From assembly GCF_014137975.1 (NCBI RefSeq), contig NZ_JACGWZ010000004.1:186001-250000 (forward strand): a DNA stretch of 64,000 nucleotides, read 5' to 3'. Positions within the stretch are counted from its first letter, which is position 1; every line of letters begins with the position of its first letter. This stretch comes from Halosaccharopolyspora lacisalsi. GTDB lineage: Bacteria > Actinomycetota > Actinomycetes > Mycobacteriales > Pseudonocardiaceae. Position numbers and translations under genes: made by a program. Under the pieces are notes generated by a model. That model made no database searches. It saw nothing but the letters and a program-made list of their open reading frames with translations, and was not told where the DNA came from. Positions 28,591 to 37,099 of this stretch are shown here, piece by piece.

Positions 28591-29511
28591 TCATTCCGAC
28601 GAACCGCTCGGCCCGGTCGTGCCCTGGGACGATCCGGGCGTCCGCTCACTCTCGCGGGTCGGCGCGTAAGGCAACGGCGGGAGCCCGGGAACCGGAAGGC
28701 CGATGCGGAACAGGGCCCCGGCTCGCGGATGCCGAGTCGTGTCGGTGGCCACCCTGGAGGTGGTGATGTAGAGCTCGTCGAGCCGGGGGCCGCCCAGGGT
28801 GCAGGCCGTGACTCGGGGTACGGGCACGGTCACGACCTCGTCGAGTTCTCCCCGAGGCGTATAGCGCCGTACGGCGCCTCCGCCCCACAACGCCACCCAC
28901 AGGTGCCCCTCGGCGTCGACGGTCAGGCCGTCGGGCGCCCCCGCGTCGCTTTCGATCTCCACGAGCGTGCGACGCCGGCTCAGCTGTCCGTCGACGTAGT
29001 CGAAGGCGTCGACGGTGCGGGTCGGCGTGTCCACGTAGTAGGCCGTGGTGCCGTCCGGGCTCCAGGCGAGCCCGTTGGAGATGGTGACTCCGGTGAGCAC
29101 GCTCGAGACCGTGTGGTCGGGGTTCAACCGGTACAGGCCGCCCGCGCCCGGTGTTTCGGCGTAGGCCATAGAACCGCAGTAGAACCGTCCGTCCGGATCG
29201 CAGCCGCCCTCGTTCATCCGGAGTCCGGAGTCCGGCCACAGTTCGGGGAGCGGGCGAACCCCGGCGAGGTCGTCGTCGGTCAACGCGAACCCTCGTTCGA
29301 GGGCCAGGACGGCCCCGTTGTCACGGCAGGGTCGCAGAGCCGCGACAACGGAGCCGACGTGGCGGCGGTGGACGGACCCACTTCGCTCGTCGAGGGTGAG
29401 CACGTCCCCGGCGAGCATGTCCACCCAGCGCAGGCCCGGCCACCGGTCCACCCAGACCGGGCCCTCACCGTGGTGGGCGCACGGTTCGGTCACCTGTTCG
29501 GCGGTGCTCAC
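28591..29511 (-). CDS. SMP-30/gluconolactonase-family lactonase
   Basis: A 306-aa beta-propeller lactonase that would open a sugar lactone to the aldonic acid. Metal-site motifs are GEGPVW (Glu), RMNEGGCDPDG, ISNGLAWSPDG (Asn) and GAPDGLTVDAEG (Asp), all in the expected order. GTG 29511 overlaps the stop of the upstream aldehyde dehydrogenase in GTGA, so it is the last gene of the five-gene operon. The C-terminal 25 residues are a polar extension (SERTPGSSQGTTGPSGSSE). Confidence 0.85.
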   Translation of the reverse strand: MSTAEQVTEPCAHHGEGPVWVDRWPGLRWVDMLAGDVLTLDERSGSVHRRHVGSVVAALRPCRDNGAVLALERGFALTDDDLAGVRPLPELWPDSGLRMNEGGCDPDGRFYCGSMAYAETPGAGGLYRLNPDHTVSSVLTGVTISNGLAWSPDGTTAYYVDTPTRTVDAFDYVDGQLSRRRTLVEIESDAGAPDGLTVDAEGHLWVALWGGGAVRRYTPRGELDEVVTVPVPRVTACTLGGPRLDELYITTSRVATDTTRHPRAGALFRIGLPVPGLPPLPYAPTRESERTPGSSQGTTGPSGSSE

Positions 29512-31007
29512 GGCGTTTCCGGCGGGGTGAGGGCTCCTCCGGTCGTGTCGAGGACGCCGTTGACGCGCCGTGCGACGCCCAGCGGATTCTCGTCGAGCAG
29601 CTCCTCCGGCAGGATCTCGGCGGGTGCGTTCTGGTAGGAGACGGGGCGCAGGAAGCGATCGATGGCGGCCGTGCCGACGGAGGTGTGCCCGGATCCGGTG
29701 GTGGCCGGGTACGGGCCGCCGTGCTGCATGGCGTGGCTGACGCTGACCCCGGTCGGCCACCCGTTGTAGACCAGCCTGCCCACCCGGTGCTGGAGCAGGG
29801 TGGCGAGCCGGGACACGATCTCCTCCTCGGCGGTCCCCTGCACCGTGGCGGTGAGTTCGCCCTGGAACAGCTCGGCCGCGGCCGCCAGCTCCTCCTCGTC
29901 GGAGTAGGAGACGAGGATCGAGGTCGGGCCGAAGCACTCGGTCAGCAGCTGATCGTGGTGCCGGAGGAGTTCCGCGGCGCTCGTGGCCAGCAGGCTCGGC
30001 GTCGATCCCTGCTCGGTGGGGCGAGCCGGAGTGATCACGCGGATCGCGGGGTGGTCGGTCAGCGTCGTGAGCGACTCCTGGAAACCCCGCTGGATGCGGG
30101 AGTTCAGCATGGCCCCACCCGCGTGCTCCTCCAGGGAGCTCGCCAGGCGTTGCTCGAACCGCGCGGTGGACTCGGAGGGCACGAACAGCACTCCCGGCTT
30201 CGTGCAGAACTGGCCGGTACCGAGGGTGAACGAGCCGAGGTAGCCGTCGGCGATGTCGTCGGGACGCTGCGCCGCCGCCCGCGGGGTGACGAAGGCGGGG
30301 TTCACGCTGCCCATCTCGGAGTGGAAGGGAATGGGGTCCGGCCGCGAGTTCGCCAGGTCGAACAGGGCACGGCCCGCGGTGGCGGATCCGGTGAACGCCC
30401 CCGCGCGTACTCGGTGGTCCTGGACCGCCGTGCGGCCGGCTTCGTCGCCGCTGATGAGAGCGAACGTTCCCGCCGGAGCATCGGTCTCGCGCAACGCCTC
30501 GTCGATGATCTCGCCGGTCCGCCTGGACAGTTCCGGGTGGCCGGGATGGGTCTTGAGCACGACCGGGCAGCCCGCGGCCAGTGCGGAGGCGGTGTCACCG
30601 CCGGCGACGCTGAACGCGAACGGGAAGTTGCTGGCCGCGAACACCACCACCGGCCCCAGCGGCAACACCGTCCGCCTCATGTCGGGGCGAGCTCCCGTCG
30701 GCCAGCTCGCGTCGGGCAGATCGATGGTGGCGTTGAGGAAGGTGCCCTCGTCGAGGACGTCGGCGAACAGGCGCAGCTGGAAGGTGGTGCGGGTGAGTTC
30801 GCCGGTCAGCCTCGCCCGCGGCAGGTGGGATTCCCGCTCGGCCAGCGGGATCAGCTCGTCACCGGCGGCATCCAGTGCTTGGGCGATACCGCGCAGGATC
30901 CCCGCGCGTTGTGCGGGGCGGAGTCGAGCCAGCGGCCGGCTCGCCCGCTCGGCGGCGTCGAGGGTCGCGGCCAGTTCCGCTTCTCCGGTGACAGTCTCGG
31001 TGGTCAT
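29508..31007 (-). CDS. Alpha-ketoglutaric semialdehyde dehydrogenase-type aldehyde dehydrogenase
   Basis: A 499-aa NAD(P)-dependent aldehyde dehydrogenase. Catalytic Cys268 is in TGQFCTKPG and the general base Glu231 in HSEMGSVNPAF; FAASNFPFAFSVAGGDTASA is the cofactor region. The SxNPAF variant after Glu is typical of the 2,5-dioxopentanoate (alpha-ketoglutarate semialdehyde) group, the last step of Weimberg-type pentose and hexarate degradation, forming 2-oxoglutarate. That substrate is inferred from similarity and from the lactonase/dehydratase neighbours. ATG 31007 has AAGGAG upstream; the next gene upstream ends 38 bp before. Confidence 0.85.
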   Translation of the reverse strand: MTTETVTGEAELAATLDAAERASRPLARLRPAQRAGILRGIAQALDAAGDELIPLAERESHLPRARLTGELTRTTFQLRLFADVLDEGTFLNATIDLPDASWPTGARPDMRRTVLPLGPVVVFAASNFPFAFSVAGGDTASALAAGCPVVLKTHPGHPELSRRTGEIIDEALRETDAPAGTFALISGDEAGRTAVQDHRVRAGAFTGSATAGRALFDLANSRPDPIPFHSEMGSVNPAFVTPRAAAQRPDDIADGYLGSFTLGTGQFCTKPGVLFVPSESTARFEQRLASSLEEHAGGAMLNSRIQRGFQESLTTLTDHPAIRVITPARPTEQGSTPSLLATSAAELLRHHDQLLTECFGPTSILVSYSDEEELAAAAELFQGELTATVQGTAEEEIVSRLATLLQHRVGRLVYNGWPTGVSVSHAMQHGGPYPATTGSGHTSVGTAAIDRFLRPVSYQNAPAEILPEELLDENPLGVARRVNGVLDTTGGALTPPETP

Positions 31008-31045: not shown

Positions 31046-32059
31046 TCAGGGGCGCAGCAGGATCTTGATGGTGGCCGGGTCGGCCTCGGCGAGTAGCCCC
31101 AGGGCTCGTTCCGCGTCGTCGAGAGCCAGCTCATGAGTGATGATCCGCGAGGGGTCAAGAGCTCCCGACGCGAACGCGCGAACCGCGTGCGTCCAGGCAC
31201 GTGGCGGTGCTCCGAACACCGTGTGCACCGTGATCTGGGAAAGCACCAGGTGGGCCGGCGAGGGTGGTTGCCGTTCCTCCGAGGCCAGTCCCGTCAGGAC
31301 GACGCGGCCGCCGGGGCGGACCAGCCTCGTGGCGAGATCGGCGGTACCGGAGCTGCCCGCCGCTTCGACGACGACGTCGAAGCGTCCCGGTACCGTCGCC
31401 TCCTCGGGCGTTCTCAGCGCGGTGGCCCCGTTCGCGGCGGCTGCTTCGGCGCGTTGACGATGCGGATCCACCACGAGCAGTTCGGCCGGAGAGGCCGCCG
31501 CCAGCAGCTGGGTCGCGAGCAGACCGAGACTGCCGCCTCCGACCACGGCCACGCTCTCGCCCGGCAGCACGCCGGCCTTGAGGCACGCCGCTGCCGCGCA
31601 CGCGGCGGGCTCGAGGCTCGCCGCCGCCCGCAGGTCCGAATCGGCGGGCAACACGTGCAGCAGGCGGGCGGGCAGCGTCAGATGGTCCGCCCACGCGCCG
31701 GCGCGGGTGAAGCCGGTCTCGTCGTACTCGGCCGTGCACAGGTTGGTCTCACCGGCCCGACAGGACGGACACACCAGGCAGGTCCGGAAGCCCTCCCCGA
31801 CCACGGGACGACCGACCAGGCCGGAGTCCACATCGGCCCCGGTTTCGGCCACGGTGCCCGACCACTCGTGACCGGGCACCACCGGATACCGCACGAAGCC
31901 CTCGGGGCGGTGACCGGCGAAGACCTCGCGGTCGGAACCGCAGATCCCGCTGTAGGCCACCCGGACCAGGGCCTCTCCCGGGCCGGGTGGGGTCGGATCA
32001 CGAGGCGTGACGCGCAGCTGTCCGGGCGCGTCGATGCGGACCGCACGTGCGGTGTTCAC
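31046..32059 (-). CDS. Zinc-dependent alcohol/polyol dehydrogenase
   Basis: A 337-aa medium-chain dehydrogenase. Catalytic zinc ligands are Cys40 (GICGSD) and His64/Glu65 (GHEWSG); structural zinc Cys94, 97, 100 and 108; NAD site VVGGGSLGLLATQL. It belongs with threonine/idonate/galactitol-type dehydrogenases and would oxidise a sugar or sugar acid hydroxyl; substrate unknown. GTG 32059 overlaps the stop of the dehydratase gene in GTGA, indicating translational coupling in the operon. Confidence 0.85.
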   Translation of the reverse strand: MNTARAVRIDAPGQLRVTPRDPTPPGPGEALVRVAYSGICGSDREVFAGHRPEGFVRYPVVPGHEWSGTVAETGADVDSGLVGRPVVGEGFRTCLVCPSCRAGETNLCTAEYDETGFTRAGAWADHLTLPARLLHVLPADSDLRAAASLEPAACAAAACLKAGVLPGESVAVVGGGSLGLLATQLLAAASPAELLVVDPHRQRAEAAAANGATALRTPEEATVPGRFDVVVEAAGSSGTADLATRLVRPGGRVVLTGLASEERQPPSPAHLVLSQITVHTVFGAPPRAWTHAVRAFASGALDPSRIITHELALDDAERALGLLAEADPATIKILLRP

Positions 32060-33213
32060 TGCGCCTCCTTGGTGCCGCGGAACTGCCAGTCCTCGGCGTA
32101 GAGGTCGAACCGAGCTCCGCGGGAGGGGTGCTCCCGGACGAAGTCCAGATCGAGCTCCACGCCCAGACCGGGTACCGTCGGCAGCTCGAAGTGGCCGTCG
32201 ACGACCTCCGGCAGCCCCGGAGCCGCCTGCTTGATGTGCTCGTCGGCGAAGTCGTTGAAGTGTTCCTGGATCTTGAAGTTGGGCGTGACCGCGGCCAGGT
32301 GAAGGTTGGCCGCGGTCAGCACGGGGCCACCGACGTTGTGCGGGGCCACGAGCACGTAGTGCGTCTCGGCGGTGGCGGCGACCTTGCGGACCTCCGAGAT
32401 CCCGCCGAAGTGCCCGATGTCGGGTTGGAGGACATCGACGGCCTGCTGGGTGAACAGCTCGCGGCACTCGTTGCGGTCGTGGACGCGCTCACCGGTGGCC
32501 ACGGGGGCGTCGACCTGTTGCGTCACCTTGGCCAGCGCCTCGAAGTTCTCGGGTGGAACGGGCTCCTCGATCCAGCTCGGGGCGAAGGGACGCAGCGCGC
32601 CGGCGATCCGCACGGCCTCGGCCGGGGCGAACCGGCCGTGCATCTCCACGAGGATCTCGATGTCCGGTCCGACGGCGTCGCGCACCGCTTCGACCAGCTC
32701 GACCGAGCGGCGGAACTCGGCGGGTTCGAGTTCCCACCGGCCCGGTCCGAACGGGTCGAACTTCAGTGCCCGGTATCCGCGTTCGACGACCGCGCGTGCC
32801 GCCGTGCGGAACTCCTCCGCGGTGCGTTCGACGGTGTACCAGCCGTTGGCGTAGGCCTTGATCCGGTCGTTGACCCGTCCGCCGAGCAGGCGCCACACGG
32901 GCTGGCCGAGCGCTTTGCCGATGATGTCCCAGCAGGCCGTTTCCACGCAGGCGATGCCGGACATCACGACCTCTCCGGCACGCCCGTAGTCGCCGTACTT
33001 CATGCGCCACACCAGCGACTCGACGTCGAAGGGGTCGGTGCCGCGGACGTGGTTCGGACCGGCCTCGGCGAGGTACCCGAGCAGCGCCTGGGTGTGACTC
33101 AGCATCCTGGTCTCACCGACGCCGACCAGGCCTTCGTCGGTGTGCACCCGGACGTAGGTCAGGTCTCGCCACGGGGTGCCGACGACGAAGGTCTCCAGGT
33201 GAGTGATCTTCAT
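32056..33213 (-). CDS. Enolase-superfamily sugar acid dehydratase (mandelate racemase group)
   Basis: A 385-aa enolase-superfamily protein. The N-terminal capping domain (1 to about 120) precedes a barrel with Lys151 in ALKFDPFG, metal-ligand candidates Glu190 (VEMHGRF), Glu216/217 (IEEPVPPEN) and Glu242 (ATGERVHDR), and the dyad Asp265 (QPDIGHFGG) and His292 (APHNVGGP). Such proteins dehydrate aldonic or aldaric acids to 2-keto-3-deoxy acids; gluconate, galactonate, arabinonate and xylonate are all possible. ATG 33213 follows AAAGGAA. It overlaps the alcohol dehydrogenase by four bases. Confidence 0.85.
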   Translation of the reverse strand: MKITHLETFVVGTPWRDLTYVRVHTDEGLVGVGETRMLSHTQALLGYLAEAGPNHVRGTDPFDVESLVWRMKYGDYGRAGEVVMSGIACVETACWDIIGKALGQPVWRLLGGRVNDRIKAYANGWYTVERTAEEFRTAARAVVERGYRALKFDPFGPGRWELEPAEFRRSVELVEAVRDAVGPDIEILVEMHGRFAPAEAVRIAGALRPFAPSWIEEPVPPENFEALAKVTQQVDAPVATGERVHDRNECRELFTQQAVDVLQPDIGHFGGISEVRKVAATAETHYVLVAPHNVGGPVLTAANLHLAAVTPNFKIQEHFNDFADEHIKQAAPGLPEVVDGHFELPTVPGLGVELDLDFVREHPSRGARFDLYAEDWQFRGTKEAQ

Positions 33214-33236: not shown

Positions 33237-34163
33237 TCAGTGCCGGACCGGCTGCGGGACGGCGAGGTCGGCGGTCGGAAGCTGCGAGGTCTTCGCGTCC
33301 GGAGCATGCCGGTCCAACATGTCCAGGCCGATGCGGGCGCGTCGCACGCGTTCGCGTCCGAGCAGGGTGGCGGTGGGAGTCAGGTGCAGGCCGCTGGGAT
33401 AGATGTTGGGGGCGTTGCGCAGGCCGAACTTGAGGTAGACCGGCGCGGCCACCCGCACGATCTCGGCGATCTCGTAGTGCCGGACGAACCCTCCCAGATC
33501 GTCGGGGGACTCGACGTAGACGTCCAGGGGCAGGGAGGTGGCGGCACGGATGCTCGCGATCTGGGGGATCGACAGGTCGGTGGGCACGTTGTAGGTGTCG
33601 GCACCGAGATCCTCCGCGATGCGTATCGAGGCCGGGTTCGCCAGTCCCATCTGCACGCTGGCCTTGAAACGCAGGTCGGAGGGAAGTTCTCCGGCCGCGC
33701 GCATTCGTGCGGCCACGGCCAGCACACCGAGGTCGGTGATCAGCACACTGCGCAGTCCGGCCTCGGCGGTGCGCCGGACGTCCTCCAGGACGTGCACCAG
33801 TTGTTCGGTGCCCCGCGCCTGGGCCGCGACGCTCCCGGAGATCGTGGCCATGCTGCCGGTGTCCCAGGCCGCCACGGGCCTGGCGAACAAACTCACCTCC
33901 GCGTGTCCGGCGAGTTCGGCCATCTCGGCCAGTTCGTCGCCCGTGAGCAGCATTCCTCCGCTGCCCTGGGAGATCCGGTGGATGGTGACGTCATGGGTAC
34001 GAGCCTGCTCGAAGACTCCGCGCAGTACCTCCGGACCTTCCACGCTGGGAATCTCGACGCGGTACTGCGCGCCGTCCGGGAAGCGTTTCGTACTGGTGGG
34101 AGCCTCACCGGACTCGGTGGCAGGCAGCCCTTGCGAGCTGAGGAAATCGCGTGTCTGTTGCAC
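33237..34163 (-). CDS. U32-peptidase-like TIM-barrel protein, first gene of the sugar-acid operon
   Basis: A 308-aa protein whose barrel-like pattern (VLRGVFEQARTHDVTIHRIS, SVLITDLGVLAVAARMR, LRFKASVQMGLANPAS, LGADTYNVPTDLSIPQIASI, LPLDVYVESPDDL) resembles the collagenase-like U32 family, but without the classical U32 signature peptide, so proteolysis is not supported. Its place at the head of an operon with lactonase, sugar acid dehydratase and semialdehyde dehydrogenase suggests a step in sugar-acid metabolism. GTG 34163 is preferred over TTG 34229 because the perfect palindrome 34184-34198 would otherwise lie inside the gene; the RBS (GGACGG) is weak, so the start is uncertain. Confidence 0.7.
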   Translation of the reverse strand: MQQTRDFLSSQGLPATESGEAPTSTKRFPDGAQYRVEIPSVEGPEVLRGVFEQARTHDVTIHRISQGSGGMLLTGDELAEMAELAGHAEVSLFARPVAAWDTGSMATISGSVAAQARGTEQLVHVLEDVRRTAEAGLRSVLITDLGVLAVAARMRAAGELPSDLRFKASVQMGLANPASIRIAEDLGADTYNVPTDLSIPQIASIRAATSLPLDVYVESPDDLGGFVRHYEIAEIVRVAAPVYLKFGLRNAPNIYPSGLHLTPTATLLGRERVRRARIGLDMLDRHAPDAKTSQLPTADLAVPQPVRH

Positions 34164-34355: not shown

Positions 34356-35123
34356 ATGGCACGTGCGGTACCTGCGGTGGAGCGAGCTTTCGACATCCTC
34401 GAGCTGTTCCTCGACGAGCACGAGCTCAACCCTCCGGAGATCACCGCCAGACTGGGGCTGCCTCGCACGACCGTGCACGAGCTGGTCAGCACCCTCGTCG
34501 AGCGGGAGTACCTGACACCGGCGACCAGGGACAGCAGCCGCTTCCGGCTCGGCGTCCGCGGGTTCCAGCTGGGCTCCGCCTACGCGGAGCGCCTCGACCT
34601 GGCTCGGGAGGGGCAGCTCGTCGCGGAGGGAATCGCCGAGAAGTGCCACGAGACGGTGCACATCGCCGTGCGGGAGGGCACCGAGGTGCTCTACGTCGCC
34701 AAGGTGGACAGCACGCATCCGGTGCGAATGGTCTCCGCCGTCGGACGGCGGCTTCCGGCCCACTGCACGGCGGTGGGCAAGGCCCTGTTGGCGACGTTGC
34801 CGCGTAAACGGGTCGACGAGCTCTACGCCGACACCGGGTTGATCGCGATGACCGACAACAGCATCACCAGCCGTCGCGCCCTGCACGGCGAGCTGGAGGA
34901 GATCCGCGCCGGCGACGGTGTGGCACGGGAGCACTGCGAGTCCAACGACGCCGTCGCCTGCGTCGCGGCACCGGTGCGGGATCACTCCGGCGCGGTGGTG
35001 GCCGCCGTGAGCATCTCCGCCCCGATCCTGCGTTTCGACGACGACGTCGAGGCGTTCCTGCGTGATCTCGCCCGCCAGGGGGCCGACGAGTTGTCACATC
35101 GGCTCGGTTTCCTCGCCTCCTGA
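34356..35123 (+). CDS. IclR family transcriptional regulator
   Basis: A 255-aa regulator. Winged HTH at about 5-65 (AVERAFDILELFLDE, ITARLGLPRTTVHELVSTL) and the IclR effector domain at about 75-250 (KCHETVHIAVREGTEVLYVAK, LPAHCTAVGKALLATLP, EHCESNDAVACVAAPVRD, VVAAVSISAP). It is divergent from the sugar-acid operon and close to a symporter gene, and similar palindromes lie at those promoters, so it most likely controls this locus in response to a sugar acid or keto-deoxy acid. ATG 34356 follows GGGAAGGG. Its last 30 bp overlap the convergent small membrane gene. Confidence 0.88.
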   Translation: MARAVPAVERAFDILELFLDEHELNPPEITARLGLPRTTVHELVSTLVEREYLTPATRDSSRFRLGVRGFQLGSAYAERLDLAREGQLVAEGIAEKCHETVHIAVREGTEVLYVAKVDSTHPVRMVSAVGRRLPAHCTAVGKALLATLPRKRVDELYADTGLIAMTDNSITSRRALHGELEEIRAGDGVAREHCESNDAVACVAAPVRDHSGAVVAAVSISAPILRFDDDVEAFLRDLARQGADELSHRLGFLAS

Positions 35124-35405
35124 CGTCTGCGGGGACAGCGGTCTGAGCTTCAGCCACATCAGGAACAACGCGCCCACGAGCAACATCGCGATCCCCGTCC
35201 AGAGATTGATGTTGACTCCCTCGGCCTTGTGAATCGCCTGCGGGCCGGCGAAGACACCCGCCGCCCCGATGAGGACTCCGTAGACGAGGAACAGGCCACC
35301 GATGATGGCTCGTATGTCGAACAGCTGACCGAACTTCGACTTGTGGGCGGGTTCGGTGCTCGCGTCGTGCTGTGGGGACGGGGGTGCGGTGTCGTTGTCG
35401 GTCAT
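35094..35405 (-). CDS. Small membrane protein accompanying the sodium/solute symporter
   Basis: A 103-aa protein with a polar acidic start, helices at about 34-55 (IIGGLFLVYGVLIGAAGVFA) and 67-88 (NLWTGIAMLLVGALFLMWL), and a charged tail. It lies 26 bp after the symporter on the same strand; small two-helix proteins next to SSS permeases are common in actinobacteria, but the role is unknown. ATG 35405 has CGAGGAGGAA upstream. It overlaps the end of iclR by 30 bp on the opposite strand. Confidence 0.75.
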   Translation of the reverse strand: MTDNDTAPPSPQHDASTEPAHKSKFGQLFDIRAIIGGLFLVYGVLIGAAGVFAGPQAIHKAEGVNINLWTGIAMLLVGALFLMWLKLRPLSPQTSGGEETEPM

Positions 35406-35431: not shown

Positions 35432-37099
35432 TCACAGGGTGAAGGGCACGTAGCACAGGGCGGCCAGCGCGACGGCGCCCCACCCGAGCAGGGCGGGCCG
35501 GCGGTACCAGGCGCCGTCTCCCGGTGCGTGCTCGCCCTTGTCCTGCGCGGAGGCCCTGGTGTAGACGAGCCCCTCCAGCTCGCTGGCGGCCTTCGGCCGG
35601 GTCGCCAGGCTGATGGGCACGCTCACGACCACGTTGACGATGAAGGCGATGATCGCCGCGGTCATGTTGGCGGCCTGGTCGGTGCTCAGCGGAACGTATC
35701 CGGTGCTGTAGGAGGCGTAGAACGCCACCGGCGCCAGGGTTCCGAGCAGCAGCCCCCAGAAACCGGCCTTGGCGGTCATCCGCTTCCAGAACAGGGCCAG
35801 GATGAAGGTGGCGAACAGCGGCACGTTGAAGAACGAGAACAACGTCTGCATGTAGTTCATGATGTTGCTGAACGAGGCGGCGATGAACGCCGTGCCCATT
35901 CCGACGACCACCCCGATCACGGTGATCACGCGCCCGACCGTCACGTAGTGCTTGTCGGGCATCCGCGGCTTGACGTAGGCCTGCCAGATGTCGTTGGTGA
36001 ACACCGTGTTGAAGCTGGAGACGTTGGCGGCCATACCGGCCATGAACGAGGCCATCAGACCGGTCACGGCGAGACCGAGCACCCCGTTGGGCAGCAGCTC
36101 CCGCATCAGCAGCGGAATGGCCTGGTTGTACTCGTAGGCACTGCTCGGGCCGCCGATGCTGGGCGCGATGACCAGGGCGATCAGGCCGGGAAGCACCACG
36201 ATCAGCGGGATGAACATCTTCGGGAAGGCCGCGATCAGCGGAGTACGCCGTGCCGCCGAGAGGTTCTTGGCCGACAGCGAGCGCTGCACCTCGGCGAAGT
36301 TGGTCGTCCAGTACCCGAAGGAGATCGCGAATCCGAGCCCGAGCGTGATCCCCAGCCAGTTCGTGCCCAGCGGGTTCTGCTCGCCGAACCCGGTTCCGCC
36401 CCATGCGCTGAGGAACTGTGCTCCCTCGCTGGCGACCACCTTGTCGATCAGCCCGTCGAAGCCGCCGACCCGGATCAGCCCGAGCACGGTCAGCGGGACC
36501 AGCGCCGCGATGATGACGAAGAACTGCAGCACCTCGTTGTAGATGGCCGAGGTCAGTCCGCCGATGACGATGTAGGCGAGCACGAACACGCCCGAGACCA
36601 CGATGGACACCGGCAGCGGCCACCCCAGCAGCGTGCGCAGGATGATCCCGAGGGCGAACAGGTTGACTCCGGCGATGAGTACCGAGGCGATCGCGAACAG
36701 GCTCGAGCTCAACAGATGCGAGGAGGGGCTGAATCTCCGCAGCAGGAACTCGGGGACGCTGCGCACCTTCGAGTTGTAGTAGAACGGCATCATGACCAGG
36801 CCGAGAAAGACCATGGCCGGGATGGCCCCGATCAGGTACCAGTGCACTGTGTAGGCACCGTACTGCGCGCCGTTGGCGGCCATCCCCAGGATCTCGGTCG
36901 CCCCGAGGTTCGCCGAGACGAATGCCAGCCCGGTGACCCAGGCGGGAAGCGACCGTCCCGAGAGGAAGAAGTCAAGACTGCTGTTGACGCTGCGCTTCGC
37001 CACCAGGGCGATGCCCAGCACCACGACGAAGTACGTGGCGAGGATGAGGTAGTCCAGCCAGTTCATCGACAGGCGTAGCCCGTCGGCCAAGTAGTGCAT
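35432..37099 (-). CDS. Sodium/solute symporter (SSS family), probable sugar or sugar-acid importer
   Basis: A 555-aa membrane protein with about 13-14 helices. SSS patterns include DFFLSGRSLPAWVTGLAFVS, GATEILGMAANGAQYG, GGLTSAIYNEVLQFF, FGYWTTNFAEVQRSLSAKN and AANVSSFNTVFTNDIW. It resembles SglT-type sodium/glucose carriers. It probably brings in the substrate of the neighbouring sugar-acid enzymes. ATG 37099 is chosen over an earlier start at 37228, because the operator-like repeat at 37179-37193 would then lie inside the gene. Confidence 0.88.
   Translation of the reverse strand: MHYLADGLRLSMNWLDYLILATYFVVVLGIALVAKRSVNSSLDFFLSGRSLPAWVTGLAFVSANLGATEILGMAANGAQYGAYTVHWYLIGAIPAMVFLGLVMMPFYYNSKVRSVPEFLLRRFSPSSHLLSSSLFAIASVLIAGVNLFALGIILRTLLGWPLPVSIVVSGVFVLAYIVIGGLTSAIYNEVLQFFVIIAALVPLTVLGLIRVGGFDGLIDKVVASEGAQFLSAWGGTGFGEQNPLGTNWLGITLGLGFAISFGYWTTNFAEVQRSLSAKNLSAARRTPLIAAFPKMFIPLIVVLPGLIALVIAPSIGGPSSAYEYNQAIPLLMRELLPNGVLGLAVTGLMASFMAGMAANVSSFNTVFTNDIWQAYVKPRMPDKHYVTVGRVITVIGVVVGMGTAFIAASFSNIMNYMQTLFSFFNVPLFATFILALFWKRMTAKAGFWGLLLGTLAPVAFYASYSTGYVPLSTDQAANMTAAIIAFIVNVVVSVPISLATRPKAASELEGLVYTRASAQDKGEHAPGDGAWYRRPALLGWGAVALAALCYVPFTL

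Follow-up and report, generated by a model that had tools for sequence, protein, structure and literature searches.

A cysteine-free U32-like protein as a candidate 2-keto-3-deoxypentonate dehydratase in a sugar-acid operon of Halosaccharopolyspora lacisalsi

The window analysed here, a stretch of 64,000 nucleotides from contig NZ_JACGWZ010000004.1 of Halosaccharopolyspora lacisalsi, contains a five-gene operon whose first gene encodes a cysteine-free protein related to the U32 peptidase family (hereafter U32). We propose that this protein fulfils a new function within a pathway of known type; the proposal is well founded but as yet unproven. From the gene, its operon, its predicted fold, its invariant residues, its changing partners and its co-occurrence with an enolase-type dehydratase, we infer a substrate, a reaction, a mechanism and a stereospecificity. 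U32 is very probably one of the enzymes of a pathway that oxidises sugar acids and probably acts on a 2-keto-3-deoxy acid, and the more precise assignment as a 2-keto-3-deoxypentonate (KDP) dehydratase is a serious yet tentative candidate.

The operon would encode an oxidative, non-phosphorylative pentose route ending in 2-oxoglutarate, in which a sugar dehydrogenase (ADH), a lactonase (SMP), an aldonate dehydratase (ENO), U32 and a ketoglutarate-semialdehyde dehydrogenase (KGSADH; ALD) would act in that order. U32 would take the KDP made by ENO and remove water to yield 2-oxoglutarate semialdehyde, either through a Schiff base or by general acid-base chemistry involving the invariant Lys167/Lys245, Asp144, Asp214 and Glu37, which lie at the mouth of the barrel. 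The protein would then be a third KDP dehydratase, unrelated in sequence to the FAA-hydrolase (FAH) and DHDPS types, possibly serving the L-isomer derived from L-arabinose.

The U32-like protein and its predicted fold

The gene lies exactly where the earlier note placed it, from 34163 to 33237 on the minus strand. It has 308 codons and a GTG start, the position of which is conserved among homologues, and it is the single match to Pfam PF01136 (Peptidase_U32) in the 5.37-Mb host genome. The match covers residues 128-217 only (E 2e-9) and, at 37.6 bits against a cut-off of 22.4, places the protein in the family by profile score; the NCBIfam model of UbiU matches weakly, at 21.5 bits, far under its cut-off of 440. 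An AlphaFold (AF2) model built on 25 aligned orthologues (60-78% identity) is a regular (beta/alpha)8 barrel with a mean pLDDT of 86, so that the barrel protein with a U32-like pattern described in an earlier note on this DNA holds up. Conservation scored over 101 homologues, the most distant about 35% identical, shows invariant residues on most strands, among them E37 (strand 1), R63 (strand 2), D144 (strand 4), K167 and S169 (strand 5), N192 (strand 6), D214 (strand 7) and K245 (strand 8). They look like one conserved active site, and because these barrel residues are invariant we read the protein as an enzyme. A sequence search of solved structures gave no match, and fold comparison was rejected as a guide to the reaction, with CutC, RuBisCO-like enolases, MfnB, class II aldolases, PrpB, transaldolase and the U32 protein Mk0906 all scoring alike.

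The U32 class is otherwise known for prephenate-dependent hydroxylation. Our protein shares with its members (UbiU/UbiV, TrhP, RlhA) a remote homology over strands 4-7, and the acid E162, essential in E. coli TrhP, is kept as D214 (PMC6599085). Unlike them, it lies in sugar-acid operons, carries extra invariant lysines and has no cysteine among its 308 amino acids, so that the Fe-S ligands of UbiU, TrhP and RlhA are missing. It descends from the U32 barrel but, without these essential cysteines, fails the defining chemistry of that family. The Pfam family name is what speaks for an ordinary U32 hydroxylase or protease sitting in the operon by accident; this is highly improbable given the strong linkage to sugar genes and the lack of any counterpart to TrhP C170 and C177, even though E162 aligns with the invariant D214 (PMC6599085), in line with the earlier statement that nothing marks the protein as a protease. 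We found no report in the literature of U32 relatives in sugar-acid pathways.

Operon partners and co-occurrence with the enolase-type dehydratase

The genes follow one another in the order U32-ENO-ADH-ALD-SMP, with 4-bp overlaps between ENO and ADH, where the GTG start of ADH overlaps the ENO stop, and between ALD and SMP. Domain matches and gene order agree with the earlier description of an operon of lactonase, candidate sugar dehydrogenase, enolase-type dehydratase and KGSADH-type gene. The best NCBIfam matches of ENO are gluconate/galactonate and galactonate dehydratase, both under the cut-offs; the nearest solved structures to ADH are sorbitol/threonine dehydrogenase-like; and ALD, with 1eyy and 3v4c as best solved relatives, is under the curated NCBIfam cut-offs. 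The operon resembles Weimberg-type (Route II) pentose oxidation in its set of candidate sugar dehydrogenase, lactonase, aldonate dehydratase and KGSADH-type gene, and differs from it in lacking an FAH- or DHDPS-type KDP dehydratase, in whose place the U32 gene stands; the step either is without an assigned gene or belongs to U32. Whole-genome family searches place no PF00701 (DHDPS), PF00920 (IlvD) or PF01557 (FAH) gene within the window, in keeping with the absence of such genes reported from the letters alone. The earlier counting of IlvD/Edd among keto-deoxy-acid dehydratases has to be corrected: in these pathways IlvD is an aldonate dehydratase and an alternative to ENO, the classical keto-deoxy-acid dehydratases being of FAH or DHDPS type (PMC9795676).

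Starting from 47 loci on genome contigs and adding plasmid and genome searches, we collected about 100 non-redundant U32 loci. All were found through U32 itself, and its constancy is therefore partly a matter of selection, for which genome-wide co-occurrence serves as a check. A search for the same five-gene set elsewhere, proposed in the earlier note, finds it whole in Frankia/Parafrankia (L029, L030, L031, L036) and rearranged in other genera (L087, L090), so the grouping is not due to chance. Across the loci the partners vary around U32: ENO is replaced by IlvD (L094, L117, L119, L120), the MDR-type dehydrogenase by SDR (L110, L111, L137, L139), SMP by an MBL hydrolase (T. roseum L049, L109, L130, L137), and SSS by ABC transporters. 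In L094, L119 and L120 an M24-type hydrolase, U32 and IlvD form a trio beside ADH; L119 also holds ABC-transporter and SMP genes, and L120 a nearby KGSADH-like gene. L-arabinose genes (araB/D/A, arabinofuranosidase) adjoin U32 in L040, L043, L089 and L109, a hint at L-arabinose or some pentose related to it.

In a set of 299 genomes from the order, an ENO orthologue occurs in 19, U32 in 37 and both in 17; the corresponding numbers in 301 Chloroflexota are 22 (ENO at least 57% identical), 25 and 19, the two genes often lying far apart on the chromosome. The Fisher p values, about 1e-15 and 5e-22 respectively, take no account of kinship, and common ancestry makes them look stronger than they are. 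Loci with linked ENO are nevertheless spread across the U32 tree, and a pairwise test of KGSADH linkage against dehydratase linkage on that tree was not significant (median p 0.38). The ENO genomes without U32 (G146, G179, G941, G955, G990) were considered as a source of a replacement enzyme and set aside as uninformative because their ENO gene either stands alone or lies where a contig ends.

The aldehyde dehydrogenases adjacent to U32 belong to two unrelated KGSADH types. One is the ALD group of the window; for the other (L108, L109, L117, L126, L130), GucD and 2,5-dioxovalerate dehydrogenase rank 1-2 of all families, under the curated cut-offs. With two unrelated kinds of enzyme, the pathway seems to have arrived at 2-oxoglutarate semialdehyde as its end point on more than one independent occasion. 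In Amycolatopsis (L004, L008, L018) a KGSADH gene directly follows U32. ALD-type paralogues (45-53%) lie beside KdgD (L054, L178), a DHDPS-type gene (L175) and FAH (L174), and in the host genome the paralogue has KdgD and glucarate dehydratase as neighbours; no dehydratase is linked to the KGSADH-III paralogues of Saccharopolyspora.

The keto-deoxy-acid step and its possible enzymes

None of 39 ENO-U32 loci has an FAH, DHDPS, HpcH or DmpG gene within 6.5 kb. U32, ENO or IlvD, and KGSADH occur together within that distance in 18 of 100 loci, and of these L117 alone has an FAH or DHDPS gene as well, namely FAH. As the sole recurrent gene without a role, in loci where the classical enzyme is nearly always unlinked, U32 fits the place given to it earlier, in a sugar-acid pathway ending in KGSADH. 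PF01557 was also searched in 27 genomes with ENO and U32, and the Sulfolobus-type D-KDP dehydratase was not recognised in 11 actinobacterial ones (G202, G218, G226, G182, G293, G258, G061, G645, G667, G024, G025). Low-scoring FAH matches precede AcDH-DmpG, the MhpD position, in G293, G667 and G024, and lie among unrelated genes in G258 and G061; those in the remaining actinobacterial ENO+U32 genomes were typed by score alone.

U32 might be a bystander, with a role of its own, and the keto-deoxy acid be handled by the FAH-type dehydratase (C5:411k) or KdgD (C5:353k), both of which the host genome encodes. This appears improbable in the face of the genome-wide co-occurrence with ENO and the exchange of partners, and in G202, a single-contig genome with ENO, U32 and ALD, neither of the two FAH matches scores like the D-KDP dehydratase type.

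If U32 is a KDP dehydratase, it would share with the FAH-type enzyme (EC 4.2.1.141) the removal of the C4 hydroxyl from KDP, feeding KGSADH. That enzyme, of which a true member occurs elsewhere in the host genome, is a metal-dependent FAH beta-sandwich roll, in contrast to the (beta/alpha)8 barrel of U32, which does not match PF01557 and with which no sequence similarity was detected. With the DHDPS/NAL-type L-KDP dehydratase (EC 4.2.1.43) it would share a TIM barrel, a possible Schiff-base lysine and the same proposed reaction (PMC9795676); unlike that enzyme, U32 does not match PF00701 and has its invariant lysines on strands 5 and 8.

A second context leads to the same kind of chemistry. 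In mycobacteria-like loci (L095, L096, L163), U32 fills the MhpD slot before AcDH-DmpG; in the controls L184, L185 and L188 this slot holds an unassigned gene at the FAH match. The reactions of MhpD and KDP dehydratase are of one kind, each taking place at C3-C4 of a 4-hydroxy-2-oxo acid, and by this likeness a (de)hydratase is suggested in either context. A broader but more speculative proposal is that the cysteine-free U32 branch is a family of 4-hydroxy-2-oxo-acid (de)hydratases, acting as a third non-homologous KDP dehydratase when actinobacteria and Chloroflexota oxidise pentoses and as a stand-in for MhpD in the mycobacteria-like operons. The U32-like genes of these operons lie at L095:6787-7749 and L163:12134-13096, and the L163 operon further contains genes for an aldehyde dehydrogenase and a CrtO-like oxidoreductase and, later on, for an IlvD aldonate dehydratase; these operons would be a catabolic route, perhaps one for a 5-deoxy sugar acid.

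Several findings weigh against U32 as the KDP dehydratase. Its fold is a generic TIM barrel for which the fold library singles out no reaction. The host genome has an IlvD + FAH cluster, in which the FAH protein (C5:411k) is related (E 9e-53) to the KD-arabinonate dehydratase of Sulfolobus, and also a glucarate cluster that contains KdgD (C5:353k) and KGSADH. FAH and a GucD-type KGSADH lie 7-8 kb from the U32-ENO operon in G346 and G361 and as a pair elsewhere in the genome in G549 and G848, and FAH adjoins U32 in L108, L115 and L125. The ALD type is absent from many genomes with ENO and U32. In Saccharopolyspora and several Amycolatopsis, U32 (70-76%) and IclR persist, but the genomes searched contain no orthologue of ENO. 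Finally, divergent U32 members adjoin aldolases: DHDPS (L088, L091, L103), HpcH (L048) and DmpG (L095). Stereochemistry offers a possible way round the FAH findings. One FAH-type enzyme that has been characterised shows a 34-fold preference for D-KDP, the L-enzyme being thought to be of DHDPS type (PMC6336799), and U32 perhaps dehydrates the L-form. The earlier view of U32 as the obvious candidate for a missing step is thus upheld as to the candidate; in view of these findings, among them that U32 outlives ENO in Saccharopolyspora, the step is missing only in part of the hosts.

An aldolase, hydrolase or accessory role for U32 is possible. Its retention without ENO and its presence beside a classical FAH dehydratase and KGSADH in G346 and G361 would suit a protein acting upstream of or beside the pathway, either as an accessory factor or as an epimerase, lactonase or tautomerase with the sugar, lactone or aldonate as its substrate, and so would its occurrence with IlvD in place of ENO, its DHDPS, HpcH and DmpG neighbours and its position as first gene of many operons. 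We consider such a role rather unlikely: many loci have an SMP or MBL lactonase besides U32, and the keto-deoxy-acid step would then be without any gene in the actinobacterial loci. More doubtful still is that U32 cleaves the same keto-deoxy acid, either as a Route I aldolase (giving pyruvate and glycolaldehyde/glyceraldehyde) or as a Route III 2,4-dioxo-acid hydrolase after a 4-dehydrogenase, with the aldehyde dehydrogenase cleaning up. Route III does consist of a dehydrogenase and a hydrolase (PMC6336799), class II aldolases, PrpB and transaldolase are among the proteins of similar fold, and several loci that pair ENO with U32 lack a KGSADH in the vicinity (Streptomyces L104-107, L137, L139); against cleavage stand the repeated pairing of U32 with two KGSADH types and the aldolase DmpG already beside it in L095 and L163.

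Surroundings of the operon and significance

The genes of the operon and the features beside it are listed in Table 1. Elsewhere in the host genome, G000:C5:402000-420000 (L053) holds GntP, an arabinonate-type IlvD and an FAH D-KDP dehydratase, a second sugar-acid route; a third, weak DHDPS match is a short fragment-like ORF (open reading frame) away from sugar genes.

Table 1. Operon genes and flanking features, in window coordinates
Feature	Position	Strand	Basis
U32-like (beta/alpha)8-barrel protein, 308 aa, cysteine-free; proposed 2-keto-3-deoxypentonate dehydratase	33237..34163	-	PF01136 partial match, AF2 model, invariant residues
ENO, mandelate racemase/enolase superfamily acid-sugar dehydratase	32056..33213	-	PF13378 + PF02746; co-occurrence with U32
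ADH, zinc-type MDR alcohol/sugar dehydrogenase, candidate pentose 1-dehydrogenase	31046..32059	-	PF08240, PF00107, PF16912
ALD, NADP-type aldehyde dehydrogenase, 1eyy/3v4c group (KGSADH-III-like)	29508..31007	-	Solved relatives; same-genome paralogue context
SMP, SMP-30/gluconolactonase-type lactonase	28591..29511	-	PF08450 E 9e-75; nearest solved structure regucalcin
IclR-family regulator, divergent from operon	34356..35123	+	PF01614/PF09339; adjoins U32 in many relatives
Sodium:solute symporter (SSS), probable substrate uptake	35432..37099	-	TIGR00813 246 bits; kept with operon in Actinopolyspora
Small membrane-type partner of SSS symporter	35094..35405	-	No Pfam family; conserved beside SSS

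Further U32 loci show other surroundings. In Saccharopolyspora (L003, L005-L007, L010, L012, L020, L024, L025, L028, L047) U32 is kept, with IclR in part of the loci, and in some a P450 and an MFS transporter follow. L088, L091 and L103 combine U32 with DHDPS, glycerate kinase, GlcD, a transketolase-like gene, CoA-transferase and TctABC, a putative organic-acid pathway, and in L108 (4911-7145) a B12-type diol dehydratase gene lies immediately upstream of the U32-like gene. Distant U32-like proteins (28-35%) accompany haem-oxygenase-like iron-containing redox enzymes in L099 and on an Enterobacter chuandaensis plasmid (L052), the latter operon also having an aminotransferase and an NAD(P)-dependent oxidoreductase; these distant members look like a biosynthetic subfamily.

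If U32 is indeed a KDP dehydratase, a hole in the sugar-acid pathways of Actinomycetota and Chloroflexota would be filled, and a third solution for KDP dehydration would become available for metabolic engineering. A class named 'peptidase' in the databases would then include an enzyme of central metabolism in two phyla.
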